This document shows positions 10,294 to 61,508 of a DNA stretch of 64,000 nt, piece by piece. The notes beneath the pieces were generated by a model. The model was not told the DNA's origin. It did not search any database and worked only from the letters and a program-made list of their open reading frames with translations. Position 1 is the stretch's first letter. Every line of letters starts with the position of its first letter. The DNA lies in NCBI RefSeq assembly GCF_003938655.1, contig NZ_RJJT01000002.1:310001-374000 (forward strand), given 5' to 3'. The position numbers were made by a program, and so were the translations under genes. The DNA comes from Rhizobium pisi (GTDB taxonomy: Bacteria; Pseudomonadota; Alphaproteobacteria; Rhizobiales; Rhizobiaceae).

Positions 10294-10344
10294 GTCGATC
10301 CCCTTTTTTGTGCGGCAGCGCTATCGGCTTGCCATCTCCCATTT

Positions 10345-10380: not shown

Positions 10381-10510
10381 GCGGCGATCTTATGCCGTTT
10401 TTTCCGCCTCGCAAGAGGGGTTGAAAAATTTCGTTCGCGAGGAATGACAGGATCGGTTGACAGATGCGGCGGAGGGTTTGAAAAGCTTGGCCCGACAAAA
10501 ACAAGGATCG

Positions 10511-11554: not shown

Positions 11555-11580
11555 GTTTCTCTATAAAATCTATGGGAAAC
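11539..11580. promoter_or_regulatory. Candidate operator/promoter region of the organosulfur operon
   Basis: An AT-rich stretch holds two overlapping dyads: GAAACT (11539-11544) and AGTTTC (11554-11559), perfect arms around 9 bp; and GTTTCTC (11555-11561) with GGGAAAC (11574-11580), one mismatch. This symmetry suits a LysR-type regulator site such as those of sulfur-starvation regulators. The gene begins about 80 bp downstream. Confidence 0.45.
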
Positions 11581-11660
11581 GTATTTTAGTCACCGACAGC
11601 CAAATTAAACCTTGGCTTTGGAGAAGAGCGGCTGTCGAGGGCAAACGGAGAGGACGCGAG

Positions 11661-19034: not shown

Positions 19035-19113
19035 CGCACTCTTGCGCCACGCCGCAGGCAAGATCGGAGCGTGAAAAGTTGCGCCAGCGGCGGGCCGTCT
19101 GGCCCTCCGGCGT

Positions 19114-20022: not shown

Positions 20023-20147
20023 GAAGTGATCTCCATTCAGGCCGTCGCGCCGTCACCGGCAGCAGGCTTTTCAAAACAAAGTGGGCGAGGTGTGCGTGGT
20101 ACGCTTCATCGCGTACAGGAATTCATGACCAGTCCTTTTTCCCACGC

Positions 20148-45786: not shown

Positions 45787-46698
45787 ATGTCCGCTCCATC
45801 GCCTACCCCTACCGAAAAGGGCATCCTGCAGTTTCTCGAAATTTGCGATAGCTTCTATCCCGTCGATGCCGTCGAAGCGTCAGTCGAGCAGCAACGGCAT
45901 TGGTACGACGCTCTTTGTGCACGGTTCGACCGGCCGCTGCCCCCTGACATGATCTTTGCCGACGGCATGGTCCAGCGCATACCGATCCGGCGTTACCGTC
46001 CCCGGAAGATCAGCACCCGTACCGTCCTTCTCTATCTTCATGGCGGCGGCTTTGTCGTCGGTTCGCTCGAGAGCCATCATGCCATCTGCGCCGAGATCGC
46101 CGATTTTGCCGGCGCGGAACTCGTTTCGGTCGATTATCGCCTCGCCCCTGAATATCGCTGGCCGGCACAGACGGATGACGGCTTCGCCGTGTTGAAGCAT
46201 CTGCTTTCCGCCGACAACAAGGTCGTACTGATTGGCGACAGCGCCGGCGGCAATCTTGCGGCGGGCCTTGCCTTGCGTGCACGCGACGAGGAATTGCCCG
46301 GTATTGTCGGCCAGGTCTTGATCTATCCGGCGCTCGGCGGAGGCCTCGATACCGGCTCCTACGTCGAAATGGCCGAGGCACCTGGCCTGACGACGGCAGA
46401 TGTCGCCTATTACCGCGAGATTGTTCAGGCCCCGGCGGACAACTCCATCGCCGCGCCGCTCAACGTATCGTCCGCTGCCGGGCTGCCGCCGGCCTTCATC
46501 ACCGCCGCTTATTTCGACCCCCTTCGCGACGACAGCCGGCAATACGCCGCCCGCCTCGCCGACGCGGGCGTCGAAGTCTGGTTCCGGGAAGAGCCGCAGA
46601 TGGTGCATGCCTGGTTGCGCGCCCGTCACATGAGCGACGGCGCGCGCGACGGCTTCCGCGCCGTCTGCGAGGCCGTCAGGCATTTTGCCGCGACTTGA
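45787..46698 (+). CDS. Alpha/beta hydrolase, hormone-sensitive-lipase family esterase
   Basis: A 303-residue esterase. The oxyanion motif is LYLHGGGF (HGGG at 85-88), the nucleophile is Ser152 in GDSAGGN, Asp is in DPLRDDS and His is in QMVHAW. ATG at 45787 follows AAAGGA; upstream in-frame Met codons lie in the divergent promoter region. It hydrolyses short acyl esters in the cytosol. It converges with the CocE-type hydrolase gene at only 3 bp and is divergent from the sigma gene; a link to acylcarnitine hydrolysis is possible but unproved. Confidence 0.9.
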   Translation: MSAPSPTPTEKGILQFLEICDSFYPVDAVEASVEQQRHWYDALCARFDRPLPPDMIFADGMVQRIPIRRYRPRKISTRTVLLYLHGGGFVVGSLESHHAICAEIADFAGAELVSVDYRLAPEYRWPAQTDDGFAVLKHLLSADNKVVLIGDSAGGNLAAGLALRARDEELPGIVGQVLIYPALGGGLDTGSYVEMAEAPGLTTADVAYYREIVQAPADNSIAAPLNVSSAAGLPPAFITAAYFDPLRDDSRQYAARLADAGVEVWFREEPQMVHAWLRARHMSDGARDGFRAVCEAVRHFAAT

Positions 46699-46701
46699 CG
46701 A

Positions 46702-48705
46702 TCACATCAGATCGCGCGCGATCCGCTTTTCGGCAAAGACCTTTTCGAAGATCTGCACGTCGTCCTCAAAAGCGGTGACGACGGCGCTGATGATCCAATC
46801 GGTCCGGGTGCAGGCGATCTGCGCGGTCGCGACCGTGCGGACAAACCAGCCCGGGCGGCGCATGTCGCAGGTCCATGTCGACGTGCCCTTCATCGACAGC
46901 GGATCACCCGGCGAAATCGACCAGACTTCCTCGCGCAATTGACGGGTCGACAGCCCCGTCTCAGGGTGCTCGTAGAGCCCGGTATCCTCATGAATGCAAT
47001 AATCGGTTCGATTGGCCGAGAGATCGCGGACGACCTGCCGTTTGGTCGCGGCGGCGACATGCTCGATGTATTTCGGCAGCGGATCGGGATTGGCCGGTTC
47101 CTCGATTTCGATCCGCTGGTGGTCGCCGAGCATCGGCAATCCCAGGCCGAGCGAGGCGATATCGATGTCGATCCCTTCGTCTTCAGGCGGCGGCAGGATC
47201 ATCGGCCAATAAGCCGTCGAAAGCGAGAGACGGATGCGATGCCCCTTGCGGAAGCGATAGCCGCAGGCATCGAGCACGAGCCGGATCGATACATTCTCGC
47301 CTGGCACGAGCGGCATGGGATCGGCATTGCCGTCGCGGTGAGTGAGATTGACGACGCCGAAGGCGACGCGCGTCGCCGTGCCGTCGGGATGGATATCGAC
47401 GAGCCGGGCGCAGAGATTGCCGCCCGTCGCCCGCGCGCGCAGCGCAAGCGTGAGCACGGGCCGGCCGAGATAATCGCAATCGGCGGAAAGCGGCACCGTA
47501 TCGAAGACCAGCGAACCGGCATCGTCGGAGCGCTGATCGATTGCCATTTCGGCGTCGGGCTTCAGCGTAAAATATTCGCCCGAGGCCGTGCCGGTGTCGA
47601 GAGGGGAGCTGAGATAGACGGGATGCTCGGGCGCATGCGGGATCGGCATGCCTTCCGTCAGCTTGCCGAACTGCTCGACATAGAAACACTGCATCCGCGG
47701 AGGCGACCATTCATCTTTGGCGACCCAGAAGCCCGGATCGCTGTCGCGGCGCGGGGCAGGGCGGATGGCGTCGAGAATATAGGCGCGGGCCTGGGGCAGG
47801 TTGTCGATGCCGTTGTCCTCGCCACGCAGCCATTTGTTCCACCAGGCGATCGCTTCGCCATGGAAATCCGTGCGCGGCTTCGGCCAGGCAAAGTGCGGAT
47901 ATTTGTGCACCCAGGGGCCGATCAGCGCCTTTGCCTTGCCGCCTAGGCCCTCGACCGCCATCAGAGGCGTATTGCGATAGCCGTCCGCCCAGCCCGCAAT
48001 GACCAACGTCGGGATTTCGACGCGGGAAAAATCCTCTGAGATCGAGCCGTGACGCCAGAAATCATCGCGTCGCTGGTGGCTCAGCCACTCTTCCATGAAG
48101 AAGGGTTCGCCTGCCAGTCGTTCCAGCCACATCTCCTTCCAGCGCTCACCAACAAGCGCAGGATCGGGCGGCCGCGACTGATAACCGAGCATCGTCGCCG
48201 CCCATGAAAGCTGGGCGGAGAGATGGCAGCCGTTCTTGTAATGGATATCGTCATTGTAGCGGTCGACGGTCGAGGCGATCGAAATGACGGCCTTCAGCGC
48301 CGGCGGACGGAGTGCTGCGACCTGAAGGCTGTTGAAGCCGCCCCAGGAGATGCCCATCATGCCGACCGAGCCGTTCGACCATGGCTGCGCGGCAATCCAG
48401 GCGATCAGCTCGCAGGCATCGGCAAGCTCGCGTTCGGTATATTCGCCGTCGATGACGCCGTCGGACTCTCCCGATCCGCGAATATCGATGCGAACGCCTG
48501 CAATGCCCGCCGCAGCAAACACCGGATAGGTCGATTCATCGCGTGGGCTCGTCCCGTCGCGCTTGCGGTAGGGCAGGAATTCGAAGACGGTGGGAACGGG
48601 ATCTTTCTCCGCGCCGTCGGGCATCCAGATGCGCGCGGCTAGCCGCGTCCCATCCTTCAGCAGAATCCATTTATTCTCGATGGTGGTGAAGCCGCGCGAG
48701 GCCAT
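46702..48705 (-). CDS. CocE/NonD family hydrolase
   Basis: A 667-residue cocaine-esterase/X-Pro-dipeptidyl-peptidase-type hydrolase. The nucleophile is Ser120 in GMMGISWGGFNS, VRIDIRGSGESDG is the family motif, and a C-terminal jelly-roll domain follows from about residue 390. There is no signal peptide, so it is cytosolic. ATG at 48705 has AAGGA at 6 bp; GTG at 48723 is less likely. It is the last gene of the carnitine/ABC operon, 20 bp after the transporter ATPase. Likely role: splitting an imported ester or amide, possibly acylcarnitine or a betaine conjugate. Confidence 0.88.
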   Translation of the reverse strand: MASRGFTTIENKWILLKDGTRLAARIWMPDGAEKDPVPTVFEFLPYRKRDGTSPRDESTYPVFAAAGIAGVRIDIRGSGESDGVIDGEYTERELADACELIAWIAAQPWSNGSVGMMGISWGGFNSLQVAALRPPALKAVISIASTVDRYNDDIHYKNGCHLSAQLSWAATMLGYQSRPPDPALVGERWKEMWLERLAGEPFFMEEWLSHQRRDDFWRHGSISEDFSRVEIPTLVIAGWADGYRNTPLMAVEGLGGKAKALIGPWVHKYPHFAWPKPRTDFHGEAIAWWNKWLRGEDNGIDNLPQARAYILDAIRPAPRRDSDPGFWVAKDEWSPPRMQCFYVEQFGKLTEGMPIPHAPEHPVYLSSPLDTGTASGEYFTLKPDAEMAIDQRSDDAGSLVFDTVPLSADCDYLGRPVLTLALRARATGGNLCARLVDIHPDGTATRVAFGVVNLTHRDGNADPMPLVPGENVSIRLVLDACGYRFRKGHRIRLSLSTAYWPMILPPPEDEGIDIDIASLGLGLPMLGDHQRIEIEEPANPDPLPKYIEHVAAATKRQVVRDLSANRTDYCIHEDTGLYEHPETGLSTRQLREEVWSISPGDPLSMKGTSTWTCDMRRPGWFVRTVATAQIACTRTDWIISAVVTAFEDDVQIFEKVFAEKRIARDLM

Positions 48706-48725
48706 GCTCATTCCTTGATGCACAT

Positions 48726-50357
48726 TCAGTTGCCGGCGCTTTCCATGCGACGCGTGGCGAGCACGCGTTCCAGCCAGCCGATTTCCATTTCCGGCACGGA
48801 TTTCAACAGCAGATCGGTGTAATCGTCAAAGGGCGGTGACAGCGCCTTCGATTTCGGACCGAACCGCACCAGCTTGCCACGATGCATCACCGCCACGCTG
48901 TCGGCAATCGCCCGGACGATCGCGATGTCGTGGGTGATGAAGACATAGGATAGCTGTTCTTCCTTTTGCAGGCGCAGGAGCAATTTGAGGATACCCTCTG
49001 CCACCAGCGGATCGAGCGCCGAGGTCGGCTCGTCGCAGAGGATGAGTTCGGGCTTGGCGGCCAGCGCTCTTGCGATCGCCACGCGCTGCTTCTGGCCGCC
49101 AGAGAGTTCGGCCGGATAGCGATCGACAAAGCCCTTGCCCATTTCGATCTGGTCGAGCAGTTCCTTGACCCTTGCCGTCTTCTCAGCGCCTCTCAGGCCA
49201 TAATAGAAGGTCAGCGGGCGGCCGATGATGTCGCGGACCGTCTGTCGCGGGTTCATGGCGGTGTCGGCCATCTGGTAGATCAGCTGGATGCGCCTGAGAT
49301 CAACGTTCGGCCGGTTCTTGAGATCGGGCATCAGCGGCTTGCCGTCGAAGACGATGCGCCCGCTGCTCGGCGGCAGGAGGCCGGTAATCGCGCGAGCCAA
49401 GCTCGATTTTCCGGAACCGGATTCGCCGACGACCGCAAGCGTCTGCCCCTTCGGCACATGCAGCGAGACATCGTGCAGCACCTTGAAGCCGTTGGAATAT
49501 TCGGCGCTGACATTTTCCACCTTCAGGAGCGCCGTGGATTGGTCGGCGGCCTCCTCGCGATAGGCCTGCCTGACATTGACGAGGGCGCGGGTATAGTCTT
49601 CCCGTGGTGCCTCGATGATCTGCTGGACGCTGCCATATTCCACCTGTTTGCCGTAGCGCAGAACCATGATGTTATCCGAGATCTGGGCGACGACGGCGAG
49701 GTCATGGGTGATGTAGAGGGCAGCTGTGTGTGTTTCCTCGATGGCATGCTTGATCGCCGCCAGCACGTCGATCTGCGTGGTAACGTCAAGCGCCGTGGTC
49801 GGCTCGTCGAAGACGATGAGTTCGGGATTGGAGCAGAGCGCCATCGCCGTCATCGCCCGCTGCAGCTGGCCGCCGGAAACCTGGTGGGGAAAACGCTCGC
49901 CGAAGGTTTCGGGATTGGGCAGGCCGAGCACTCCGAACAGATAAAGCGCACGTTTGCGCGCCTCGTCCTTGCTCATCAGTCCGTGTTTGACGGACGCTTC
50001 GATCACCTGATCGCCGAGCCGATGCGCCGGATTGAAGGCGGCAGCGGCCGATTGCGCGACATAACAGACCCGGGCACCGCGAATCTTCCGGATGCCGTTT
50101 TTGCCGAGCGCCAGGATGTCGGCGCCGTCCAGCAGCACCTCGCCGCCGGTGATTTCGGCGCCACCCCGGCCATAGGCGAGTGCGGAAAGGCCGATCGTCG
50201 ATTTGCCGGCGCCCGATTCCCCGATGAGGCCGAGAACCTTGCCCTTCTGCAGATCGAAGGAAACGCCGTCGACGATCGTGACCCGCTTCGGCGGTTCGCC
50301 CGGCGGATAGCTGGTCGCCTCGATCTTCAGATTGCGAACGGAAAGAAGCTCAGGCAT
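48726..50357 (-). CDS. Oligopeptide-type ABC transporter ATPase with two fused domains (DppD-DppF)
   Basis: A 543-residue protein with two complete nucleotide-binding domains. The first has GESGAGKST, VSGGQLQRAM and LIVFDEPTTALD; the second has GESGSGKSSLAR, ELSGGQKQRVAIARAL and [12 protein letters not shown]. It replaces the separate DppD and DppF proteins. It overlaps the upstream permease gene by 8 bp. It powers the two-permease importer encoded just upstream. Confidence 0.93.
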   Translation of the reverse strand: MPELLSVRNLKIEATSYPPGEPPKRVTIVDGVSFDLQKGKVLGLIGESGAGKSTIGLSALAYGRGGAEITGGEVLLDGADILALGKNGIRKIRGARVCYVAQSAAAAFNPAHRLGDQVIEASVKHGLMSKDEARKRALYLFGVLGLPNPETFGERFPHQVSGGQLQRAMTAMALCSNPELIVFDEPTTALDVTTQIDVLAAIKHAIEETHTAALYITHDLAVVAQISDNIMVLRYGKQVEYGSVQQIIEAPREDYTRALVNVRQAYREEAADQSTALLKVENVSAEYSNGFKVLHDVSLHVPKGQTLAVVGESGSGKSSLARAITGLLPPSSGRIVFDGKPLMPDLKNRPNVDLRRIQLIYQMADTAMNPRQTVRDIIGRPLTFYYGLRGAEKTARVKELLDQIEMGKGFVDRYPAELSGGQKQRVAIARALAAKPELILCDEPTSALDPLVAEGILKLLLRLQKEEQLSYVFITHDIAIVRAIADSVAVMHRGKLVRFGPKSKALSPPFDDYTDLLLKSVPEMEIGWLERVLATRRMESAGN

Positions 50358-51177
50358 CGCCGCGCCCTCCCTTGAGGCTGGATGTGCGTTTCAGGAGCCA
50401 GTCGACGACGAGGTTGACGCAGACGGCAAGGGCCGCGATCGCCGAGCCCGGCACCAGCGCTGCCGATATGCCGAAGATGATGCCGTCCTTGTTGTCCTTG
50501 ACCATGCCGCCCCAATCGGCCGCCGGCGGCTGAATGCCGAGACCCAAGAAGGAAAGTGTGGAGAGGAACAGGATCGAGAAAGCGAAACGAAGCCCAAACT
50601 CGGCAAGCAGCGGCGAGAGCGTGTTCGGCAGGATTTCGCGGAAGATGATCCAGAGCTTGCCTTCGCCGCGCAGCTTCGCCGCCTCGACGAATTCCATCAC
50701 CGCGACGTCGAGCGCCACGGCACGACCGAGGCGGTAGACGCGGGTCGAATCCAGGATCGCCATGACGAGGATCAGCACGATGATGTTTTGAGGCAGCACC
50801 GCAAGAACCACGAGCGCGAAGATCAGTGTCGGGATCGACATCATCAGATCGTTGAAGCGCGAAAAGACGGTGTCGATGAGGCCGCGTGAGACGGCGGCGG
50901 TGAAGCTCAAAATGACGCCGAGCGAGAAGGAGATGATGGTCGCAGCCGATGCGACCAGCAGTGTCGTGCGCGCGCCGTAGATCAGCCGCGAGAGGATGTC
51001 GCGGCCGAGATTGTCGAGGCCGAAGACGTAATTCGCGTCGGCAGGCGCCCAGACGTCGCCGACGACCTGGGTCTCGCCATAGGGCGCGATCCAGGGTGCG
51101 AAGAGGGCGCAGATGAAGGCGATGGCAATGCCGATGATGCCGATCCAGGCGGTGATGGGGATGTCTCGCAATCTCAT
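50350..51177 (-). CDS. Oligopeptide-type ABC transporter permease (DppC-like)
   Basis: A 275-residue permease with about six helices, the N-terminal extension with the FGLDNLGRDILSRLIYGART motif diagnostic of DppC/OppC, and the EAA-like loop EFVEAAKLRGEGKLWIIFRE (about residues 162-181). It overlaps its neighbours by 4 and 8 bp. Confidence 0.93.
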   Translation of the reverse strand: MRLRDIPITAWIGIIGIAIAFICALFAPWIAPYGETQVVGDVWAPADANYVFGLDNLGRDILSRLIYGARTTLLVASAATIISFSLGVILSFTAAVSRGLIDTVFSRFNDLMMSIPTLIFALVVLAVLPQNIIVLILVMAILDSTRVYRLGRAVALDVAVMEFVEAAKLRGEGKLWIIFREILPNTLSPLLAEFGLRFAFSILFLSTLSFLGLGIQPPAADWGGMVKDNKDGIIFGISAALVPGSAIAALAVCVNLVVDWLLKRTSSLKGGRGDA

Positions 51178-52181
51178 CTTGGATGCCTCAGCCGGGGATT
51201 GGCGATGATCGCGAGGATATCGGCCGTCATGTTGAGGAAGATATAGACGGCGGCAAAGATCAGGCCGCAGGCCTGCACGACAGGCATGTCGCGCACGGTG
51301 ACCGCATCGACCATATATTGGCCCATGCCGGGATAGACGAAGACGACCTCGACGACGACGACTCCGACCACGAGATAGGCGAGATTCAGTGCGACGACGT
51401 TGATGATCGGCGCGAGCGCATTGGGGGCGGCGTGCTTGACGATCGAACGGGAGGCGCTGAGGCCCTTCAGTTCCGCAGTCTCCATATAGGCCGAGGACAT
51501 GACCGAAAGGATCGCCGCACGCGTCATGCGCATCATATGGGCGAGCACGACGAGCACGAGGGTCGCCGTCGGCAGCGCGATCGCCTTCAACCGCTCGACG
51601 AAGCCCATGCTGTCATAGACCGTCGCCGGGAAGGTCGCCATGCCGAACTTCACCGCGAAGAAGAGGATCAGCAGGTAGCCGATGAAGAATTCCGGCAGCG
51701 AGATCGCCGCAAGCGAGATCACGTTGATGATCTTGTCAGGCATGCGGTTGCGGAAATGCACCGACAGCATGCCGAGCCCGACGGCAAGCGGCACTGAAAT
51801 CACCGCTGCGAAACCCGCGAGGAAGAGGGAGTTGCCGAGGCGCTTGCCGATCTGTTCGCTCACCGAATTCTTGCTGGCCCAAGAGGTGCCGAAATCACCC
51901 TGCACGGCGTTGCCGAGCCATTCGACGTAACGCGTCGTGACCGGGCGGTTCAGTCCGAGGTCCTGGCGAATATTGGCAACGGCCTGCGGCGTCGCCGACT
52001 GGCCGAGATAGGTGGTAGCAAAATCGCCGGGCAGGGCTTCCAGACCACCGAAAATCAGGATGGAAACAGCGAAAAGCAGGACGACGCTGAGCACGAAGCG
52101 CTCGAGGATAAGGGCAAGCAACGGAAAACGCTGCCGGAACTTTAGCCCAGGCAAGATGTCGCTCGGGGCAGGATTGGTCAT
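51174..52181 (-). CDS. Oligopeptide-type ABC transporter permease (DppB-like)
   Basis: A 335-residue permease. DppB features are FGGLEALPGDFATTYLGQSA and RQDLGLNRPVTTRYVEWLG in the first periplasmic loop, and the cytosolic loop YMETAELKGLSASRSIVKHA. Its stop overlaps the DppC-like start by 4 bp. A 100-bp gap containing a perfect hairpin separates it from the binding-protein gene. Confidence 0.93.
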   Translation of the reverse strand: MTNPAPSDILPGLKFRQRFPLLALILERFVLSVVLLFAVSILIFGGLEALPGDFATTYLGQSATPQAVANIRQDLGLNRPVTTRYVEWLGNAVQGDFGTSWASKNSVSEQIGKRLGNSLFLAGFAAVISVPLAVGLGMLSVHFRNRMPDKIINVISLAAISLPEFFIGYLLILFFAVKFGMATFPATVYDSMGFVERLKAIALPTATLVLVVLAHMMRMTRAAILSVMSSAYMETAELKGLSASRSIVKHAAPNALAPIINVVALNLAYLVVGVVVVEVVFVYPGMGQYMVDAVTVRDMPVVQACGLIFAAVYIFLNMTADILAIIANPRLRHPR

Positions 52182-52254
52182 GGCGAAGGCCTCGCGCTAA
52201 AACGTCGGGAGGACCGCGGGGTTTCATCCCACGGTCCCGGCTTCGTTGGAGATC

Positions 52255-52276
52255 AGAGGGGGCAAGCGCCCCCTCT
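52255..52276. terminator. Perfect hairpin downstream of the oligopeptide-type binding-protein gene
   Basis: AGAGGGGGC (52255-52263), loop AAGC, GCCCCCTCT (52268-52276): a 9-bp stem six bases beyond the binding-protein stop, inside the operon. A second imperfect stem (GGACCG 52211-52216 with CGGTCC 52232-52237) follows. There is no T-tract; likely an mRNA-stabilising or attenuating element that keeps binding protein in excess over permease. Confidence 0.7.
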
Positions 52277-52281
52277 TGCCA

Positions 52282-53871
52282 TCAGGCGTCCAGCCAGACG
52301 CGGGTTGCGACGTAGCCGTTCGACATGTCGTTGCCGATATCGTGGACATAGCCCTTCACCTGCTTGGTGGAGGCGTTCACGAAGTCGTTGAACATCGGCA
52401 GGATCACGCCGCCCTCGTCTCGCACCGTCATCGCCATGGTGCGGTACATGTCCTTGCGCTTGGCTTCATCAAGCTCGGCGCGGGCCTGCAGCAGCAGCTT
52501 GTCGAAGTCAGGACGCTTGAAGCGGGTGTCGTTCCAGTCCGCCGTCGAGAGATAGGCGGTGGAATACATCTGATCCTGCGTCGGACGGCCACCCCAATAG
52601 GAGGTCGAGAAGGGCTGGACGTTCCAGACATTGGTCCAGTAGCCGTCGCCGGGCTCGCGCTTGACCTCGATCTCGATCCCGGCCTTCTTGCAGCTTTCCT
52701 GATAGAGGACGGCCGCATCGACGGCGCCGGGGAAGGCGACTTCCGACGTGCGCAGGAGGACCGAGCCGCTGTGGCCCGATTTCTTGTAGTGGAAGGCCGC
52801 CTTGTCGGGATCATAGACGCGCTGCTCGATGCCCTCGGGGAACAGTGCATAGGTGCTGTTGATCGGGAAGTCGTTGCCGACCTTGCCGTAGCCGCCGAGG
52901 ATCTTCTGCACCATGGTCTCGCGATCCATGGCGTATTTGAGGGCCAGGCGCAGGTCGTTATTGTCGAACGGCGCCTTGTCGCAGTGCATGATGAAGACGT
53001 AGTGGCCGCGGCCGGCGGTCGAGAGGATCTCGACATTGGGTGCGCGTTTCAGCATGTTGACCGTCTTCGGGTCGACGCGGTTAATATAATGCACCTGGCC
53101 TGATGAAAGAGCCGCGATGCGGGCGGTGGCGTCGTTCATGCCGATGATCTCGATCGAATCGACATAACCGCGGTCGGTTCGCCAGTCGTCCTTGTTCTTC
53201 TCGAAGGTGGCGCGGACGCCAGGCTCGAAGCTCGTCATCTTGTAGGGGCCGGTGCCGATCGAGGCCAGAGGATCGTCGACGCCGCCATTCGGCTGGATGA
53301 CCAGATGGTAGTCCGACAGCAGCAGCGGCATGTCGGCATTGCCCTCGCTGAGCGTCAGCACGAGATTGCCGCCGTCGGCCTTGATTTCCTTGATCGAGCC
53401 GAGGACACCGAGCGCGCCGGATTCCGACTTTTTATCGGTGTGGCGCTTCAGCGTCGCAACGACGTCATCGATCGTCATCTCCTTGCCGTTGTGGAACTTG
53501 ACGCCTTTGCGGATCTTGAAGGTCCAGGTCGCCGCGTCCTTCGACGGTTCCCAGGATTCGGCAAGCGCCGGTACGGCAGCACCCGTCAGCGGATCGGATT
53601 CGACCAGCATGTCGCCCCAGCAGCGGCCGATGCAGAACATCACCTGCGACAGGAATTTCGCCGGATCGTTGGAATCGGTTGCAGCGCCTCCTTCGAGGCC
53701 GAGCTTCAGGTGGCCGCCGCGCTTCGGTTCGGCAGCTTCAGCGCTTTCGGTGAAGAGCTTGTCGGCGACGGCAAGTGTGATGCCCGCCGCCATGGCGCGT
53801 CCCATGAATTCGCGGCGGCTCAGTCCGCCTGCCGTGACGCGGCTTGCGAGATATTTGGTGTAGTCGTTCAT
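52282..53871 (-). CDS. Oligopeptide-type ABC transporter substrate-binding protein (SBP_bac_5)
   Basis: A 529-residue family 5 periplasmic binding protein. The N-terminus carries a twin-arginine signal (LSRREFMGRA, Arg19-Arg20) followed by a hydrophobic stretch, so Tat export is likely. Family motifs are ALAESWEPSKDAATWTFKIR, VKFHNGKEMT and VYDPDKAAFHYKKSG. It lies 118 bp after caiD on the same strand. Family members bind peptides but also opines, nickel or quaternary amines; in this operon a betaine, carnitine ester or related conjugate is plausible. Confidence 0.9.
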   Translation of the reverse strand: MNDYTKYLASRVTAGGLSRREFMGRAMAAGITLAVADKLFTESAEAAEPKRGGHLKLGLEGGAATDSNDPAKFLSQVMFCIGRCWGDMLVESDPLTGAAVPALAESWEPSKDAATWTFKIRKGVKFHNGKEMTIDDVVATLKRHTDKKSESGALGVLGSIKEIKADGGNLVLTLSEGNADMPLLLSDYHLVIQPNGGVDDPLASIGTGPYKMTSFEPGVRATFEKNKDDWRTDRGYVDSIEIIGMNDATARIAALSSGQVHYINRVDPKTVNMLKRAPNVEILSTAGRGHYVFIMHCDKAPFDNNDLRLALKYAMDRETMVQKILGGYGKVGNDFPINSTYALFPEGIEQRVYDPDKAAFHYKKSGHSGSVLLRTSEVAFPGAVDAAVLYQESCKKAGIEIEVKREPGDGYWTNVWNVQPFSTSYWGGRPTQDQMYSTAYLSTADWNDTRFKRPDFDKLLLQARAELDEAKRKDMYRTMAMTVRDEGGVILPMFNDFVNASTKQVKGYVHDIGNDMSNGYVATRVWLDA

Positions 53872-53989
53872 TCCCCAGTTCCTTCTTTATGGTGCGTTGA
53901 CAGAACTTCCGGGCAGATTCGCAGGCGGTTTCCTCTCCACCTCCGATGCCCGCATCATGCGGGAAAATGCTGCGGTTGCTGCCGCCTCC

Positions 53990-54772
53990 CTATCTTCCTT
54001 TCCAAATGGGGCTTCGCTTCTCGGCGAAGGCCCGTGCGCCTTCCAATTGGTCCTCGCTCGAATAGAGCATGTCGACCGTCGCAAACTGCCGCTTAGTGAT
54101 CTTGTTCATGGCAGTCTGGAACGTCGAACCCTCCGCTTCGCGGACGATTTCCTTGATGGCCGCGTAGACGAGCGGCGGCCCGCTTTCGAGCAGGCGGGCA
54201 AGCTCCCACGCCCTTTCCATCAGCCAGTCTGCCGGCAGAACCTCGTTGACGAAACCCCAGCGATGCGCCTCGTGAACGTCGAGCCAGCGTCCCGTCAGAA
54301 GCATGTCCATGGCGATGTGATAGGGGATGCGCTTCGGCAGCTTGATCGAGGCGGCATCGGCAACCGTGCCCGAGCGGATTTCCGGCAGGGCGAAGGTCGC
54401 ATGGTCGGCCGCGAGGATCAGATCGGCCGAAAGCGCGATCTCCAGTCCGCCGCCGCAACAGATGCCGTTAACCGCACAAATGACCGGCTTGTTGAGGTCG
54501 CGCAGCTCCTGCAGCCCGCCGAAGCCGCCGACACCGTAATCCCCGTCGACCGCATCGCCTGATGCCGCTGCCTTGAGGTCCCATCCGGCACAGAAAAACT
54601 TTTCGCCGCTGCCCGTCACGATGGCGACACGCAAGGCCGGATCGTCGCGGAAATCGCGGAAGATCAAGCCCATGGCACGGCTTGTGGCAAGGTCGATGGC
54701 ATTCGCCTTCGGCCGGTCGATGACGACTTCGAGCACTCCGCCGTCCTGTCGTGTGCGAATCTGGTCGCTCAA
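53990..54772 (-). CDS. caiD: Carnitinyl-CoA dehydratase (enoyl-CoA hydratase family)
   Basis: A 260-residue crotonase-fold enzyme. It is close to E. coli CaiD as remembered: DRPKANAIDLATS, LRVAIVTGSGEKFFCAGWDL, KPVICAVNG, the oxyanion-hole GGGLEIALSAD, and the end RAFAEKRSPIWKGR. It hydrates crotonobetainyl-CoA to L-carnitinyl-CoA. It sits 6 bp after the acyl-CoA synthetase gene and follows the acyl-CoA dehydrogenase, which together would convert gamma-butyrobetaine to carnitinyl-CoA. Confidence 0.9.
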   Translation of the reverse strand: MSDQIRTRQDGGVLEVVIDRPKANAIDLATSRAMGLIFRDFRDDPALRVAIVTGSGEKFFCAGWDLKAAASGDAVDGDYGVGGFGGLQELRDLNKPVICAVNGICCGGGLEIALSADLILAADHATFALPEIRSGTVADAASIKLPKRIPYHIAMDMLLTGRWLDVHEAHRWGFVNEVLPADWLMERAWELARLLESGPPLVYAAIKEIVREAEGSTFQTAMNKITKRQFATVDMLYSSEDQLEGARAFAEKRSPIWKGR

Positions 54773-54778
54773 CCTATC

Positions 54779-56833
54779 CTACCTCCTCCGCCGTATGAGG
54801 GCATCAACCGCAGCGACACCGCGTCCCTCGGGAAGAACCATTAATGGATTAATGTCCAGTTCCTCCAGGTGTGCCGCGTTCATTACGACATAATCTGCCG
54901 CTGTTGCGATAGTGTCGATCATAGCCTCGAGATCGCCTCGCGGCCGCCCGCGATAGCCATAGATCAATTTTGCGATTTTGAGGCGCGCAATCGCCGTGTG
55001 AATATCTGCTTTCGTCGCCGGAAGCGGCAGGATGATGGAATCTTCCAGCAATTCGACGAAGATCCCACCCGCTCCAAGCATGAGCGACAATCCGAAGACG
55101 GGGTCGCGGGTAGCCCCGACAATGAGTTCGGCGACCGGCGCATCGACCATCCTCTCGACGAGATAACCGGCATCAGAGGCCATAGCCGCCGCCGCATTCG
55201 ACACCGCCTCTGGATCTCTGAGGTTGAGCACGACGGCCCCGGCCTCGGTCTTATGCGCGATACCGAGACCCTTCAGCACGACGGGGAAACCGAGCCGTTC
55301 CGCCAGCTCGGCGGCTTCGCCAGGAGAAAAAGCCTGCAGCCCCCCGGGGATAGGGAGGCCGCAGGCGGCAAGCTCTATCTTCGCATCAGCTTCCGTCAGT
55401 GTCTCGATCTCGCCGTCCGCGGGGACGACGTTGAGCAAGGGCAGGGGAGGCGGACGATCCCAGGCCTCGCCAATCCCAGCGGCGACTTCGGCCGCGGTGA
55501 TGGCTTCGTCGATACCCGAGAAGGCGACGATACCATTTGACATCAGGCGCTCGGCGACAGGCTCCGGCATGTTCTCAGGAAGGGTCGCGAGAAGCCCGGC
55601 CAGCGTACCCGTGGCGGAGGCTGCTGCGATAACCGCGTCCGCCGTCGTCATCCATTCGGATGCCTCACACCGGTCACTGCGGGGAAAATCGAGAACGACG
55701 AGATTGAGAGCGCAGCCACCCTCGAACATAGCACTGAAGGCCTCCGTCTGACGGGCGAGATCGCCCCAAACGAAGGTGTGGTAGTCGAGCGGATTGGCAA
55801 GCGCCACCATCTCGCCCAGGACCTCGCGCAGCCGCGGCAATTGCCGTGGCTGGAGGGCCGGGAATTCCACTTTGCGGCCGACTGCGGCATCCGCCATCAG
55901 CGAGGCCTCGCCGCCGGAGCAACTCATGGACGAGATCGAATGGTTTGCAAGCGGGCCGGCGATATGCAGGAGTTTCAACGTTTCGAGCAGCGCCGGCAGG
56001 CTTTGGACACGACCGAGACCGAGGCGCGCGAGCACGGCATCGGCAACCGCATCGCTGCCGGCAAGCGAGGCGGTATGCGAGACGGCCGCGTGTTTTGCCT
56101 GCTCCGACTTGCCGACTTTCAGGACGACGACGGGCTTCCTCGAGCGACGGGCAATGGCGGCAAGACGTTCGAGGGCGGCGAGATCACCGAACCCTTCGAC
56201 ATGAAGGCCGATGGCCGTCACACGCGGGTCGTCGATCAGCGCGCAGGCGACATCGGCAAGCGATGTCTGCGCCTGGTTGCCGGCAGTGACCACATAGGCG
56301 ATCGGCAGCCCGCGGGTCTGCATGGTCAGGTTGATGGCGATATTGGAGGACTGCGTGAGGATCGCAACACCGCGTTTGACCCGCTGCATGCCGTGCTGAT
56401 CGGGCCATAACAGAGCGCCGTCGAGACCGTTGATCAGCCCGTAGCAATTGGGTCCGAGGATCGGCATGTCGCCGGCGGCCTCAAGAAGAGCTTGCTGCAG
56501 CTCGGCGCCGTCGGCAAGTTCTGCCGTCGCCTCGCTGAAGCCCGATGCATAACAGACCGCCCCCCCGGCGCCAGCCCGCGAAAGGCCGCGCACGATGTCG
56601 ACGGTGAGCACCCTGTTGACGCCGACAAAGGCGGCATCCGGTGCTGCGGGCAGATCGGAGAGGGAGCGACAGCAGCGCCGCCCGAGCACTTCGTCCAATT
56701 TGGGATGGACGGGCCAGATCTCGCCGGCAAAGCCCATGCGGTCGCACTGCTCGATCACCCTGCGCGCTTCGCGGCCGCCGAAGACGGCGATCGTTTGCGG
56801 TCTGAGCAGGCGGTCGAGCGGGCGAGATGTCAT
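54779..56833 (-). CDS. ADP-forming acyl-CoA synthetase (acetate-CoA ligase family), probable betaine-side acid:CoA ligase
   Basis: A 684-residue fused alpha-beta ADP-forming ligase. A CoA-binding domain (TIAVFGG, ILGPNCYGLIN) is followed by a ligase domain with the phospho-His in AVSHTASLAGS (His253), then an ATP-grasp domain (FPVVLKGLGIAHKTEAGAV, ELDINPLMVLPEG). It activates a carboxylic acid to its CoA thioester. Placed between the acyl-CoA dehydrogenase (4-bp gap) and caiD (6-bp gap), it probably activates gamma-butyrobetaine, crotonobetaine or carnitine. ATG at 56833 is used; upstream in-frame sequence is inside the dehydrogenase gene. Confidence 0.87.
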   Translation of the reverse strand: MTSRPLDRLLRPQTIAVFGGREARRVIEQCDRMGFAGEIWPVHPKLDEVLGRRCCRSLSDLPAAPDAAFVGVNRVLTVDIVRGLSRAGAGGAVCYASGFSEATAELADGAELQQALLEAAGDMPILGPNCYGLINGLDGALLWPDQHGMQRVKRGVAILTQSSNIAINLTMQTRGLPIAYVVTAGNQAQTSLADVACALIDDPRVTAIGLHVEGFGDLAALERLAAIARRSRKPVVVLKVGKSEQAKHAAVSHTASLAGSDAVADAVLARLGLGRVQSLPALLETLKLLHIAGPLANHSISSMSCSGGEASLMADAAVGRKVEFPALQPRQLPRLREVLGEMVALANPLDYHTFVWGDLARQTEAFSAMFEGGCALNLVVLDFPRSDRCEASEWMTTADAVIAAASATGTLAGLLATLPENMPEPVAERLMSNGIVAFSGIDEAITAAEVAAGIGEAWDRPPPLPLLNVVPADGEIETLTEADAKIELAACGLPIPGGLQAFSPGEAAELAERLGFPVVLKGLGIAHKTEAGAVVLNLRDPEAVSNAAAAMASDAGYLVERMVDAPVAELIVGATRDPVFGLSLMLGAGGIFVELLEDSIILPLPATKADIHTAIARLKIAKLIYGYRGRPRGDLEAMIDTIATAADYVVMNAAHLEELDINPLMVLPEGRGVAAVDALIRRRR

Positions 56834-56837
56834 CGGC

Positions 56838-57998
56838 TCACGCTCCCAGGGGTCTGAGCAGGTCGCGGCTGATGATGTGCCGCTGGATTTCGGAGGTACC
56901 GTCCCAGATGCGCTCGACGCGCGCATCGCGCCAGAAGCGGGCGAGCGGAAGGTCGTCCATCAGTCCCATGCCGCCAAAGATCTGGATCGCCTCGTCGGTG
57001 ACGCGTGCCAGCATTTCGGAGGCGTAGAGCTTGGCCGAAGCGATCTGCCGGTCTGCGGGGCGGCCGGCATCGACCTGCCAGGCGGCGGCAAGCGTCAGCC
57101 AATCGGCTGCGTCGATCTCGGTGATCATGTCGGCGAGCTTGAAAGACACACCCTGATTGGCGCCGATCGGCTTGCCGAATTGCTTGCGTTCGGCGGCATA
57201 GGGCAGGGCCAGGTCGAAGACACGCCGCGCCCGGCCGACACAGGTGGCGGCAACCGTCAACCGCGTGCCGTAAAGCCACTGATTGGCGATATCGAAGCCG
57301 CGATGCACCTCGCCCAGCACTTGGGCTTCGGGAATCCGGCAATCGGTGAAACTGAGGGTGCAGTTATGGTAGCCGCGATGCGAAACGGAATCATACCCCT
57401 TGAGAATTTCAAACCCCGGCGTGCCGCGATCCACCAGGAAGGCGGTGATCTTCTTCTTGATGCCTTTCGGCGTTTCCTCTTCACCCGTCGCGGCAAAGAC
57501 GATGACGAAATCGGCGACATCGGCATGGGAGATGAAATGTTTCGTGCCGTTCAGGACAAAGTCGCCACCGTCGCGGCGGGCAGCACACTTCATGCCGCGC
57601 ATATCGGAACCGGCGTCCGGTTCTGTAATCGCAAGCGCATCGATCTTCTCGCCGCGCACCGCAGGCAGGAGGTAGCGCTCGCGCTGCTCGCCCTCGCAGG
57701 CCATCAGAATGCCGGATGGCCGGCCGAAGAACACCGTCAGCCCCAGCGAGCCGCGCCCGAGTTCCCGCTCGACCAGCGTGAAGGTGGTATGGTCGAGACC
57801 GGCGCCGCCGACCTCCTCTGGGAAATTGCAGGCGTAAAAGCCGAGATCGATGCATTTGCGCTGGATTTCGCGCCCGAGCTCCGCCGGCACGATGCCGCTG
57901 CGCTCGACCTCGTTCTCATGCGGATAGATTTCGGTTTCGACGAAGGCGCGAACCGTCTCGACGATCATTTCCTGTTCTTCGCTGAGACCAAAATTCAT
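56838..57998 (-). CDS. Acyl-CoA dehydrogenase, probable gamma-butyrobetainyl-CoA dehydrogenase
   Basis: A 386-residue FAD-dependent acyl-CoA dehydrogenase. It starts MNFGLSEEQEMIVETVRAF; flavin and substrate motifs are ALAITEPDAGSDMRG and FVLNGTKHFISHAD, and the C-terminal part has QIFGGMGLMDDLPLARFWRD and IWDGTSEIQRHII, close to the position of the usual catalytic Glu. From context it would desaturate gamma-butyrobetainyl-CoA to crotonobetainyl-CoA. ATG at 57998 lies 10 bp after the carnitine dehydrogenase stop; a longer open frame upstream lies inside that gene. Confidence 0.88.
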   Translation of the reverse strand: MNFGLSEEQEMIVETVRAFVETEIYPHENEVERSGIVPAELGREIQRKCIDLGFYACNFPEEVGGAGLDHTTFTLVERELGRGSLGLTVFFGRPSGILMACEGEQRERYLLPAVRGEKIDALAITEPDAGSDMRGMKCAARRDGGDFVLNGTKHFISHADVADFVIVFAATGEEETPKGIKKKITAFLVDRGTPGFEILKGYDSVSHRGYHNCTLSFTDCRIPEAQVLGEVHRGFDIANQWLYGTRLTVAATCVGRARRVFDLALPYAAERKQFGKPIGANQGVSFKLADMITEIDAADWLTLAAAWQVDAGRPADRQIASAKLYASEMLARVTDEAIQIFGGMGLMDDLPLARFWRDARVERIWDGTSEIQRHIISRDLLRPLGA

Positions 57999-58008
57999 GC
58001 CGATCCCC

Positions 58009-59499
58009 CTATCGCCTCTGACCGACGTGACGGCCGACGCCTTCGGGCGCCGCCAAAGTCGCATGTGCTTCCGCGATCGCCTTGACCTTGTCGAACACGG
58101 CGGCCGGCGCCGGCGTGGCCTTGCCGGCCTTGCTCTCGACATGCAGCAGCATGTGCTCGGCGGTGGCGAGAGTCTCGCCCGTCTCCGTGTCGCAAAGCGT
58201 GTGAAAGACGTGCAGTCGCTTTTCGTCGACACCAAGCACCTGGCAGGTCGAATGGATCGCCTGACCGAGCTTCGCCTCGCCGAGATGGCGGATGTGGGTT
58301 TCCACCGTGTAATAGCTTTGCCCCGCCTCGACATAGGCAAGGTCGACGCCGATGAGGCGCAGCAATGCGTCTGACGTATCGCCGAAGACCTGCAGGTAGC
58401 GGTGCTCGGTCATATGGCCGTTATAGTCGACCCAGGCCGGGCTGACCTCCGTCTCGACGAGCCTCAGCGGCTTCGACGGATCGAAAGACTTGGGTGTCCC
58501 GCCGCCTTGTGCCCAGAGCGATTGCTCGAAATCCTTCAACAGCTTGCCGGCACCCCAGCCCTTGCCGCCATGGCCGCCCTTGAGGGCCTGCAGAATACCG
58601 ACGAGGTTTTCGTCGCGGATGCGTTCGAGTTCACGGAACGACAAGCCGGCTGCCTGCTCGTCGGATTGCCGGCCGATCTTTTCGATCAGCGCGTCGTCGA
58701 GATCGACCACATCGGTGAGCTTGGTCCAGGGCCAGGCGAGGCAAGGGCCGAACTGAGCGAGGAAGTGGCGCATCCCGGCCTCGCCGCCGGCGATGCGATA
58801 GGTCTGGAACAGGCCCATCTGGGCCCAGCGCAGGCCGAAGGAGTAGCGGATGACGTCATCGAGCGTCTCGACGGTGCAGATGTCGTCATGGATCAGCCAC
58901 AGAGCCTCGCGCCACAGCGCTTCGAGCAGCCGGTCGCCGACGAAGGCCTCGATCTCCTTGGCGATATGGACGCCCTTCATGCCGATCGGCGCCAGCCTGT
59001 CCATCGCCGCTTCAATGGTCGCCGCCGAGGTCTTTTCGCCGCCGACGATTTCGACGAGCGGCAGCAAGTAGACGGGATTATAGGGATGGGCGACGAAGAG
59101 GCGCTCGGGATGTTTCATGTCCCGCTGCAGATCGGTCGGCAGCAGACCCGAGGTGGAAGAGCCGATCAGCGCATCAGGACGGGCCGCGGCATCAATTTGT
59201 GTCAGTACACCACGCTTGAGATCGAGCCGTTCCGGCACGCTTTCCTGGATCCAGTCGGCACCGGCGACGGCTTCCTCCAGCGTTTTGCAGAACCTCAGCC
59301 TGCCGCGCGGCGGCAGCGGTGCGCCGGTCAGCATGGCATAGGCTTTTTCGGCATTGGCAATCACTTCGCCGACGATGCGGCCCGCCTCCGGATGCGGATC
59401 GAACACGTCAACATCGATGCCGGCGAGCAGGAAACGGGCGATCCATCCGCCGCCGATGACGCCGCCGCCGATACAGGCTGCCTTGTTGATCCCTGTCAT
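58009..59499 (-). CDS. Bifunctional carnitine 3-dehydrogenase / betainyl-CoA thioesterase
   Basis: A 496-residue fusion. Residues about 1-325 are a 3-hydroxyacyl-CoA-dehydrogenase-like NAD enzyme (CIGGGVIGGGWIARFLLAG, VAHPYNPVYLLPLVEIVGG with catalytic-type His138). Residues about 345-470 are a hot-dog thioesterase (WVDYNGHMTEHRYL). The first part oxidises L-carnitine to 3-dehydrocarnitine; the second would release glycine betaine from betainyl-CoA. This organisation is known from rhizobial carnitine dehydrogenases; in Pseudomonas the two activities are separate proteins. It lies 7 bp after the cleavage enzyme gene. Confidence 0.92.
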   Translation of the reverse strand: MTGINKAACIGGGVIGGGWIARFLLAGIDVDVFDPHPEAGRIVGEVIANAEKAYAMLTGAPLPPRGRLRFCKTLEEAVAGADWIQESVPERLDLKRGVLTQIDAAARPDALIGSSTSGLLPTDLQRDMKHPERLFVAHPYNPVYLLPLVEIVGGEKTSAATIEAAMDRLAPIGMKGVHIAKEIEAFVGDRLLEALWREALWLIHDDICTVETLDDVIRYSFGLRWAQMGLFQTYRIAGGEAGMRHFLAQFGPCLAWPWTKLTDVVDLDDALIEKIGRQSDEQAAGLSFRELERIRDENLVGILQALKGGHGGKGWGAGKLLKDFEQSLWAQGGGTPKSFDPSKPLRLVETEVSPAWVDYNGHMTEHRYLQVFGDTSDALLRLIGVDLAYVEAGQSYYTVETHIRHLGEAKLGQAIHSTCQVLGVDEKRLHVFHTLCDTETGETLATAEHMLLHVESKAGKATPAPAAVFDKVKAIAEAHATLAAPEGVGRHVGQRR

Positions 59500-59506
59500 G
59501 CCGCCC

Positions 59507-60409
59507 TCAGCGCTTCGTCAGTTTGAGTTTCTTGCGAACGTCTTCCGGGCCGATGATCCGGGCGCCCATGCCTTCGACCACCTGCACCGCCTTTTCGACG
59601 AGCTGCGCATTGGTGGCGAGCTGGCCCTTGCCGACGAAAAGATTGTCTTCCAGGCCGACGCGGACGTTGCCGCCGGCCAGAACCGCTGCGGCGGGATAGG
59701 CCATGGCGTTGCGGCCGATCGAGAAGGCCGAGAAGGTCCAACTCTGCGGCACGTTGTTGACCATCGCCATGAAGGTATTGAGATCGTCGGGCGCGCCCCA
59801 CGGAATGCCCATGCAGAGCTGGATCAGCACCGGGTCTTCGATCAGGCCTTCCTCGGCGAGCTGCTTGGCGAACCAGAGATGGCCGGTGTCGAAGGCCTCG
59901 ATCTCGGGACGCACGCCGAGATCGGTCATCTTCTTCGCCATCGCCCGCAGCATGGCCGGGGTGTTGGTCATGACATAGTCGCCGAGGTTGAAGTTCATCG
60001 TGCCGCAGTCGAGCGTACAGATCTCAGGCAGGCATTCGGCGACATGGCTGACGCGCTCGGTGGCGCCCGCCATGTCAGTGCCCCTGGGATTGAGGGGAAG
60101 GGGACTTTCGACATCCCCGAAGATCAGGTCTCCGCCCATACCGGCGGTGAGATTGAGGACCACGTCGACATCCGCCGAGCGGATGCGGTCGGTGACTTCC
60201 TTGTAGAGATCGTTGCGGCGGCTGGCACTCCCTGTTTCCGGATCGCGGACATGGCAGTGAACGACCGCCGCACCGGCCTTTGCCGCATCGATCGCGGAAT
60301 CGGCGATCTGCTTGGGAGTGATCGGCACGTGGCTGGATTTTGAGATCGTATCGCCGGCGCCGGTGACGGCACAGGTGATGAAAACATCGCGGTTCATCGC
60401 AAGAGGCAT
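59507..60409 (-). CDS. BKACE family (DUF849) 3-dehydrocarnitine cleavage enzyme
   Basis: A 300-residue beta-keto acid cleavage enzyme. Zinc-site motifs HCHVRDP and a C-terminal barrel segment with GLEDNLFV are diagnostic, as is TCAVTGAGDT at the start. It condenses 3-dehydrocarnitine with acetyl-CoA to give betainyl-CoA and acetoacetate. It is the first gene of the ten-gene leftward operon and is divergent from the AraC/GlxA-type regulator. ATG at 60409 follows GGGGAG; Met at 60397 is an alternative. Confidence 0.92.
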   Translation of the reverse strand: MPLAMNRDVFITCAVTGAGDTISKSSHVPITPKQIADSAIDAAKAGAAVVHCHVRDPETGSASRRNDLYKEVTDRIRSADVDVVLNLTAGMGGDLIFGDVESPLPLNPRGTDMAGATERVSHVAECLPEICTLDCGTMNFNLGDYVMTNTPAMLRAMAKKMTDLGVRPEIEAFDTGHLWFAKQLAEEGLIEDPVLIQLCMGIPWGAPDDLNTFMAMVNNVPQSWTFSAFSIGRNAMAYPAAAVLAGGNVRVGLEDNLFVGKGQLATNAQLVEKAVQVVEGMGARIIGPEDVRKKLKLTKR

Positions 60410-60515
60410 GTTTTTGTTCTCCCCGTCTTAACTAGCATTACGCGACAGGTTGGGCAGCGATGCTTTGCATTTTCAGAAGTTATCGATACATTATCAGAAA
60501 TCTTGGGAGGTAACC

Positions 60516-61508
60516 TTGCTGCAGCGATCGACGGAACGGCTCGATATCGATCTTCTCGTCCTGCCGGACACGAACCTGATCCTGATCGCGTCGGTCATCG
60601 AACCGCTGCGTGGCGCCAACCGTATTTCGGGCAGCGAACTTTATCGCTGGCGGCTGCTGACGCCTGATGGAGCGCCGGTCCCGACCACCAGCAATATCGC
60701 CGTTCCCGTCGAGGGGATCTTCCGGGCGACGACCGAGGATCGGCCTCTGTTCGTGCTTGCCAGCTATAATTGGCGCGGAAGCGCCACGCCCGCACTCAAG
60801 ATGCAGCTCTCCCAGGCCGCGCGCCACCGTACGGTGATCGCCGGCATCGAATCCGGGACATGGTTGCTTGCAGAGGCAAGCCTGCTCGATGGGCTGCCCG
60901 CCACCGTCCACTGGGAGGACTACGAGGATTTCGCGCTTGCCTATCCCGAGGTGCGGGCCGTCAAGGACCGTTTCGTCATCGACGGCAAGCGTCTGACGAC
61001 ATCGGGGTCGCTCCCGACCGTGGACCTGATGCTGGAGATAATCAGGCAGCGGCAGGGTTATTCGCTGGCGCTCGAGGTCAGCCGGCTGTTCCGCTACGAG
61101 CAGCCTTCCTTCCACGCCGACGAACCGCTTTCCGCAGCCTCGGCGGGACTGCGCATGCACGATCCGCGCGTGACGCAGGCGGTACGGCTGATGGAGGAGC
61201 ATATCGAGCAGCCCCTGACCCTTGCACGGCTCGCCCGCAGGGTGGGCGTCAGCGCCCGGCATCTGCAGGATCTCTTCCAGCAGAGCATCGGCGCGCCGCC
61301 GCATGTGCATTATCTCGCCCTGCGCTTGAACACGGCGCGCCGCAAGGTGATCGAGACGACAGCCTCCTTCGCCGACATCGCGGCAGCGACCGGCTTCAAT
61401 TCGGCTTCGGCCTTTGCGAGAAGCTACCGGGCGAGCTTTTCCGAGAGTCCATCCGAAACCAGGCGCCGTTTGCGCCGCCGCATCACACCATCGAAAGCGC
61501 CGGCATAG
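60516..61508 (+). CDS. GlxA-type AraC family regulator of the carnitine operon (CdhR-like)
   Basis: A 330-residue protein. The N-terminal DJ-1/PfpI-like (class I glutamine amidotransferase) domain has IDLLVLPDTNLILIASVIEP and GIESGTWLLAEASLLDG, with no Cys at the usual nucleophile position (Ser-Gly instead). The C-terminal AraC double helix-turn-helix has LTLARLARRVGVSARHLQDL and FADIAAATGFNSASAFARSY. TTG at 60516 follows GGGAGG; no ATG fits. It is divergent from the carnitine operon and resembles Pseudomonas CdhR/GbdR regulators, so carnitine- or betaine-dependent activation is likely. Confidence 0.88.
   Translation: MLQRSTERLDIDLLVLPDTNLILIASVIEPLRGANRISGSELYRWRLLTPDGAPVPTTSNIAVPVEGIFRATTEDRPLFVLASYNWRGSATPALKMQLSQAARHRTVIAGIESGTWLLAEASLLDGLPATVHWEDYEDFALAYPEVRAVKDRFVIDGKRLTTSGSLPTVDLMLEIIRQRQGYSLALEVSRLFRYEQPSFHADEPLSAASAGLRMHDPRVTQAVRLMEEHIEQPLTLARLARRVGVSARHLQDLFQQSIGAPPHVHYLALRLNTARRKVIETTASFADIAAATGFNSASAFARSYRASFSESPSETRRRLRRRITPSKAPA

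Follow-up and report, generated by a model that had tools for sequence, protein, structure and literature searches.

What does an oligopeptide-type (Opp-type) importer, encoded together with a CocE-type hydrolase behind a set of carnitine catabolic genes, bring into a rhizobial cell? The question is raised by a locus in a 64,000-nucleotide stretch of Rhizobium pisi DNA (the window; contig NZ_RJJT01000002.1, positions 310,001–374,000), which comes from a Rhizobiaceae genome of 6.67 Mb. Ten genes, all on the minus strand, occupy positions 46702–60409 of the window, and these coordinates, given in an original prediction made from the DNA letters, were confirmed. That prediction described one operon that imports a bulky carnitine or betaine conjugate and splits it with the CocE hydrolase. 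Our analysis revises how the importer is understood, namely as a predicted counterpart of the betaine importer Prb, and points to an HSL-type esterase gene left out of the original gene list as the better candidate for conjugate splitting. From gene families and gene order, we consider it somewhat better than an even bet (probability about 0.55) that the locus serves to bring in carnitine-type betaines as well as esters of these, from which an esterase, possibly CocE, would free the betaine.

Importer

The importer consists of a binding protein of the SBP_bac_5 family (positions 52282–53871, minus strand; PF00496, 261 bits), two permeases with BPD_transp_1 domains (51174–52181 and 50350–51177, minus strand) and a double ATP-binding cassette (ABC) ATPase with two ABC_tran stretches (48726–50357, minus strand). 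The N-terminus of the binding protein carries what we take to be a twin-arginine-like motif.

Counterparts 82–85% identical to this binding protein are present in 30 of 30 genomes of a genus sample recognized as Sinorhizobium via one member (G875), whose pSymB-like DNA is 94–96% identical to that of S. meliloti AK21. Eight chromosomal-type Sinorhizobium loci, the locus of G875 not among them, were compared with the window. All eight contain, in this order, the regulator, the beta-keto acid cleavage enzyme (BKACE), the dehydrogenase, the acyl-CoA (coenzyme A) dehydrogenase, the ligase, CaiD, the binding protein, two permeases and the ATPase, followed by CocE. They differ from the window in that four of them add an XRE-type regulator and a second binding protein ahead of CocE; the other four have an esterase convergent to CocE. 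Because the gene order is the same in all eight, the importer is, by synteny, a predicted counterpart of Prb and thus a betaine importer, with the binding protein corresponding to PrbA and, by order, the permeases to PrbB and PrbC and the ATPase to PrbD.

Prb of Sinorhizobium meliloti is reported to be an Opp-like proline betaine importer (PMC3596328, PMC3557214), SMc01642/3/4 are assigned to proline betaine transport (PMC3596328) and SMc01642 is PrbA (PMC4941405). SM2011_c01638, in the carnitine gene region attributed to Bazire (2019), is described as a dual-function dehydrogenase (PMC12482172) and SMc01639 as an acyl-CoA dehydrogenase (PMC12542648), so that the published locus numbers of dehydrogenase, acyl-CoA dehydrogenase and importer run in the gene order of the window. 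PRF 81 is stated to have one PrbABCD counterpart (PMC3557214), and a contig of PRF 81 (L043) has the gene order of the window; its importer is presumably the counterpart meant there.

As the syntenic Prb imports the small solute proline betaine, an Opp-type importer is no pointer to a bulky or peptide-sized substrate. The original argument from transporter type to a larger conjugate therefore fails, and we have dropped it. Reportedly, to judge from the title of the Prb paper (Alloing, 2006), the regulation of Prb is by proline betaine and by salinity stress. This leans towards what the original prediction had itself named as counting against it, a separate promoter and an unrelated inducer for positions 46702–53871. 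An orphan binding protein, 59% identical to that of the window, was also observed on pSymB of S. meliloti AK21 (L083:9968–11575), with no importer-permease match within the 21.6 kb fetched.

Hydrolases

The HSL-type esterase gene (positions 45787–46698, plus strand; PF07859 Abhydrolase_3, 206 bits) is convergent to the CocE gene, with 3 bp between the two. Its start was taken from the annotated counterpart in R. johnstonii 3841, the longest open reading frame starting at 45664. An HGGG stretch, the Ser of a GDSxGxN motif, an Asp and a His are kept in five aligned sequences. In 13 loci of other genera (L108, L118, L132–L134, L136–L138, L141–L145), the esterase is co-directional with CaiD and comes immediately after it; in six different loci (L099, L150, L208, L211, L212 and L219), it comes immediately after the dehydrogenase. 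Loci L205 and L206 stand outside these six, their thioesterase piece being below the identity floor; such floors were set gene by gene by the analyst.

Several of these loci come from a sample of the phylum, in which the dehydrogenase family was found in 65 of 398 genomes and 20 places were fetched; 18 were checked (L202–L215 and L218–L221), leaving out two of the window's own genus (L216 and L217). Two of them, L206 and L208, resemble Pseudomonas in their carnitine operons and contain an OpuAC protein, BKACE, the dehydrogenase, a thioesterase, an Abhydrolase_3 esterase and a gene resembling gamma-butyrobetaine hydroxylase. This arrangement equals the caiX-cdhCAB-hocS order published for Pseudomonas aeruginosa, whose carnitine operon closes with the acylcarnitine hydrolase HocS (PMC5806209); the substrates of HocS are described there and in a second source as short-chain acylcarnitines (PMC5806209, PMC5979481). 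The esterase at the hocS position of L206 is 41% identical to the window esterase over 241 aligned positions. When that of L208 was compared with the window's own genome, the window esterase came first, with 138 bits against 51.9 and 42.8 for the following matches.

The window shares BKACE, dehydrogenase, thioesterase and a divergent AraC-type regulator with the P. aeruginosa operon and its cdhR, and L206 additionally has the Abhydrolase_3 esterase at the place of hocS. The binding protein of the P. aeruginosa operon is of the OpuAC type, whereas that of the window is of the Opp type. In L206, unlike the window, the thioesterase is unfused and there is no CoA ligase, desaturase or CaiD match. 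The window esterase is convergent to CocE, whereas the esterase at the hocS position is co-directional with its operon. On these comparisons, the HSL-type esterase is likely the stronger candidate for ester splitting and CocE the weaker one, and the layout of the esterase gene weakens the case for CocE as the sole esterase. The idea that the pathway is supplied by hydrolyzing a conjugate, either an ester or an amide, gains from the recurrence of CocE- and HSL-type hydrolases beside carnitine genes in several genera and from the HocS precedent (PMC5806209).

The CocE/NonD-type serine hydrolase (positions 46702–48723, minus strand) scores 230 bits against TIGR00976, for which the cut-off is 66. 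In a phmmer alignment, Ser126, Asp247, His273 and Tyr52 correspond to Ser117, Asp259, His287 and Tyr44 of cocaine esterase, which we take to be the catalytic triad and the oxyanion tyrosine. All four residues are invariant in 22 aligned sequences, comprising that of the window and 21 relatives with 73–92% identity. The AlphaFold model is weak (mean predicted local distance difference test score, pLDDT, 66) and was used for its overall fold alone; cocaine esterase is its top Foldseek match, with an E-value of 5e-26 for this modest model. The two enzymes thus agree in fold and, by alignment, in triad and oxyanion tyrosine, but differ in sequence, with ~20% identity over the structural alignment. 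No signal peptide was seen in CocE by eye. Among the papers listed from open-licence PMC text on rhizobial CocE or on an acylcarnitine esterase with carnitine, nothing on this system was found.

Three further CocE loci are recorded here for their own sake. On pSymA of S. meliloti R28 (L125, ~10001–11985), an unannotated CocE-like stretch in two pieces (52.5%) lies among insertion sequences and is apparently a decayed copy. On a plasmid of Mesorhizobium sp. B2-1-8 (L129, L227), a CocE-importer unit lies beside a gene of the trimethylamine methyltransferase family and an FAD (flavin adenine dinucleotide) oxidoreductase gene, possibly another quaternary amine link and offered as a lead only. In L028 (9258–9979), two small genes that appear toxin-antitoxin-like by eye separate the ATPase from CocE.

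Genomic linkage

A CocE scan of species genomes gave 152 relatives, of which the best 80 (73% identity or more) were taken as CocE loci. Within the fetched flanks, importer genes are present in 72 of the 80, and importer, CocE and at least one carnitine gene occur together in 58; this association is not due to chance. The HSL-type esterase is found in 71 loci and, in 70, faces CocE convergently at a distance of no more than 1.5 kb. An unbroken series from dehydrogenase to CocE is present in 27 of the 80, BKACE lying outside most of those flanks. Recurrent linkage is thereby demonstrated, as are the synteny, the gene families and the intact catalytic motifs described in this report.

The linkage also holds when pairs are counted by genome. 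A dehydrogenase match at an E-value of 1e-100 or better is present in 73 of 121 Rhizobiaceae genomes. Leaving aside the window's own, 72 of 120 have the dehydrogenase, 57 have CocE and 50 have both, and in 30 of these 50 the two genes are no more than 20 kb apart. If they were placed at random in a 5-Mb genome, ~0.4 such pairs would be expected, a rough figure uncorrected for shared ancestry. Among 384 other genomes of the class, the dehydrogenase was found in 56, CocE in 51, both in 28 and a linked pair in six. The class-level scan used 53 of 83 CocE rows; the 30 omitted were extra copies, none within 20 kb of a dehydrogenase by eye. The 40 best dehydrogenase places outside the own genome, fetched regardless of CocE with a flank of at most 19 kb, contain the importer in 18 cases, CocE in 11 and the esterase in 10.

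The layouts vary. CocE may follow the ATPase, precede the binding protein, or be encoded antiparallel to the carnitine genes. Among 21 loci picked for a dehydrogenase near CocE (L131–L151), the importer is present in 21, a rate biased by that choice; CocE stands ahead of the importer genes in 15 of 15 (L131–L145), 12 of which have the esterase. A further set, L152–L170, was picked for a CocE gene distant from the dehydrogenase. Esterase, binding protein, permeases, ATPase and CocE follow one another beside carnitine genes in L146, L147, L149 and L151, and in L085 all genes from BKACE through the esterase are co-directional. These differing layouts argue for selection over a frozen order. The CocE tree (59 rows, a quick method with one support value) places carnitine-linked copies in at least three groups set apart by supported branches, and the carnitine-linked label requires 11 changes on it, compared to 19.9 for shuffled labels.

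A second kind of unit is also recurrent. A divergent XRE-type regulator (c1) is found in 34 of the 80 CocE loci and is accompanied by a second binding protein in 33. Six loci (L027, L051–L054, L081) have the cassette of regulator, second binding protein and CocE but no importer permeases. The second SBP_bac_5 protein is 66% identical to the binding protein of the window in the stand-alone copies of five loci. Cassettes of this kind were also observed inside Prb loci (L033:7498–12010 and similar).

Catabolic genes and regulator

The gene products at the front of the locus agree with a gamma-butyrobetaine/carnitine-to-betaine pathway, a claim of the original prediction that family scans support. 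The carnitine 3-dehydrogenase, which is fused with a 4HBT thioesterase domain (positions 58009–59499, minus strand), scores 936 bits against PRK07531 (cut-off 592) and contains 3HCDH_N, 3HCDH and 4HBT_2. BKACE (59507–60409, minus strand) is a family-level assignment (PF05853, 324 bits; gathering score 24.8) and the sole PF05853 match in its genome. It would convert dehydrocarnitine and acetyl-CoA to betainyl-CoA and acetoacetate. The acyl-CoA dehydrogenase (56838–57998, minus strand), recognized by its Pfam domains, would desaturate gamma-butyrobetainyl-CoA. The acyl-CoA synthetase is of the nucleoside diphosphate (NDP)-forming acetate–CoA ligase type (54779–56833, minus strand; ATP-grasp_5, Succ_CoA_lig and CoA_binding_2). 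The starts of these last two genes were shortened, to 57998 and 56833. For the crotonase (53990–54772, minus strand, TTG start), crotonobetainyl-CoA hydratase CaiD (NF002936) is the best of 73 families; the protein may work like CaiD, which is as far as the assignment goes. Most family names of the original prediction thus hold, that of CaiD in this reduced form. Taken together, the catabolic part appears to be the ordinary rhizobial pathway from gamma-butyrobetaine and carnitine to betaine, with known biochemistry applied to these families.

The divergent AraC/GATase-type regulator (60450–61508, plus strand, start approximate), also absent from the original gene list, is GbdR/CdhR-like. GbdR is its best NCBIfam match, accompanied by HTH_18 and a weak DJ-1_PfpI match; the CdhR model is absent among the matches listed.

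In a metabolic model of R. leguminosarum, 3-dehydrocarnitine and betainyl-CoA are reporter metabolites in a rhizosphere comparison (PMC8751395). Carnitine was not mentioned in two rhizosphere papers searched for it (PMC3333776, PMC11103875).

Organization of the locus

The five catabolic genes, from BKACE to the CaiD-like gene, are separated by 7, 10, 4 and 6 bp, within the 4–10 bp originally given. A gap of 118 bp (positions 53872–53989), which may contain an internal promoter, precedes the binding protein gene, and one of 100 bp (52182–52281) with two GC-rich inverted repeats (hairpins, by eye) separates it from the first permease gene. Downstream, the permease genes overlap by 4 bp, the second permease and ATPase genes overlap by 8 bp, and 2 bp lie between ATPase and CocE. 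Scans for consensus promoters and terminators gave results near chance (4 against 2.6 expected; 14 against 9.8). The gap before the binding protein is 115–130 bp in 56 and 139–377 bp in 12 of the 68 loci measured. The gene order of the window, from the regulator through the ten genes to the esterase, is the same in R. johnstonii 3841.

The region past the esterase (positions 42916–45521) contains genes for an RNA polymerase sigma factor and for a protein with a von Willebrand factor A (VWA) domain. In R. leguminosarum 3841, the VWA gene pRL100386 is reported to be important for growing in the rhizosphere and colonizing roots (PMC11103875). Judged on plasmid and family alone, it probably corresponds to the VWA gene at 18683–20809 of locus L130.

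Proposed function

We propose that the locus comprises two modules. The first, consisting of the AraC regulator, BKACE, carnitine dehydrogenase-thioesterase, acyl-CoA dehydrogenase, CoA ligase and CaiD-like hydratase, would convert gamma-butyrobetaine to carnitine through CoA thioesters, and carnitine through dehydrocarnitine and betainyl-CoA to glycine betaine. The NDP-forming ligase, reversible by type, could regain carnitine from carnitinyl-CoA. The second module would comprise the Prb-type betaine importer (binding protein, two permeases and double ATPase), CocE and the convergent HSL-type esterase. The importer would take up carnitine-type betaines and their O-acyl esters; the HocS-like esterase, perhaps with CocE, would cleave the esters in the cytoplasm, and the betaine would enter the first module. 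The substrates, the transport specificity and any co-regulation are what we infer here.

Several observations weigh against this proposal. Two family matches remain below their equivalog cut-offs, the crotonase with 313 bits (cut-off 500) and the regulator with 201 bits (cut-off 480). The esterase tree leaves the proteins at the hocS position weakly placed, some on long branches, and does not resolve their orthology with the window esterase; an esterase match is missing from 11 of the 18 phylum loci. Proline betaine, the published substrate of Prb, contains no ester. Linkage is incomplete: the fetched flanks of 14 of the 72 importer-CocE loci contain no carnitine gene; 22 of the 40 dehydrogenase loci have no importer, 29 no CocE and 30 no esterase within their flanks; and dehydrogenase and CocE are unlinked in 20 of the 50 Rhizobiaceae genomes and 22 of the 28 class genomes with both, some contigs being short. 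Around CocE in nine further loci, which do not belong to the carnitine-linked set, the genes are unrelated and, by eye, have no theme in common. As a separate observation, two of the importer-CocE loci without a carnitine gene (L069, L072) have cobalamin-like genes upstream, by eye.

Some of these points suit an alternative that we regard as less likely, in which proline betaine, other small betaines or unrelated amides are what the importer-CocE unit handles and the carnitine genes are no more than its neighbours. CocE would then act on a carnitine-unrelated, peptide-like amide or another ester, and only the HSL-type esterase would belong to carnitine use. Besides the substrate published for Prb (PMC3596328, PMC3557214) and the 14 loci without a carnitine gene, this alternative draws on the six cassettes that lack importer permeases and on plasmids of Ketogulonicigenium and Martelella, where importer-CocE units have no annotated carnitine gene in flanks of 9–10 kb. 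Against it, dehydrogenase and CocE lie within 20 kb of each other in 30 of the 50 Rhizobiaceae genomes with both, in several layouts, and carnitine-linked CocE copies fall into at least three tree groups divided by supported branches.

A single ten-gene operon under one inducer, with Opp-type import of a bulky acylcarnitine, betaine ester or amide that CocE alone splits, has co-directional genes with mostly short gaps, the unbroken order in 27 of 80 loci and the same ten-gene order in R. johnstonii 3841 in its favour, but it is improbable and not supported given the small substrate of Prb, the importer units without carnitine genes (14 of 72), the XRE-type regulator (34 of 80) placed with a second binding protein ahead of CocE in other Rhizobium, the spacing of 115 bp or more in front of the binding protein gene in all 68 loci measured, and a second, better-placed esterase.

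Biological implications

The two-module proposal can be extended beyond this locus, although we put the extension forward tentatively and at less than even odds. Rhizobiales may carry a widespread betaine-ester scavenging system, in which a Prb-type importer takes up esterified carnitine or betaine conjugates whole and unrelated cytoplasmic hydrolases, CocE-type and HocS-like, free the betaine for the gamma-butyrobetaine/carnitine pathway. In that case, the CocE-importer unit would be a cassette for conjugate uptake in general, which became associated with carnitine genes on several occasions. Provided that the hydrolases accept betaine esters as substrates, the locus would represent a conserved rhizobial route to acylcarnitines and related esters as a source of carbon, nitrogen or osmolyte, and this group of CocE enzymes would gain a directly testable natural substrate.

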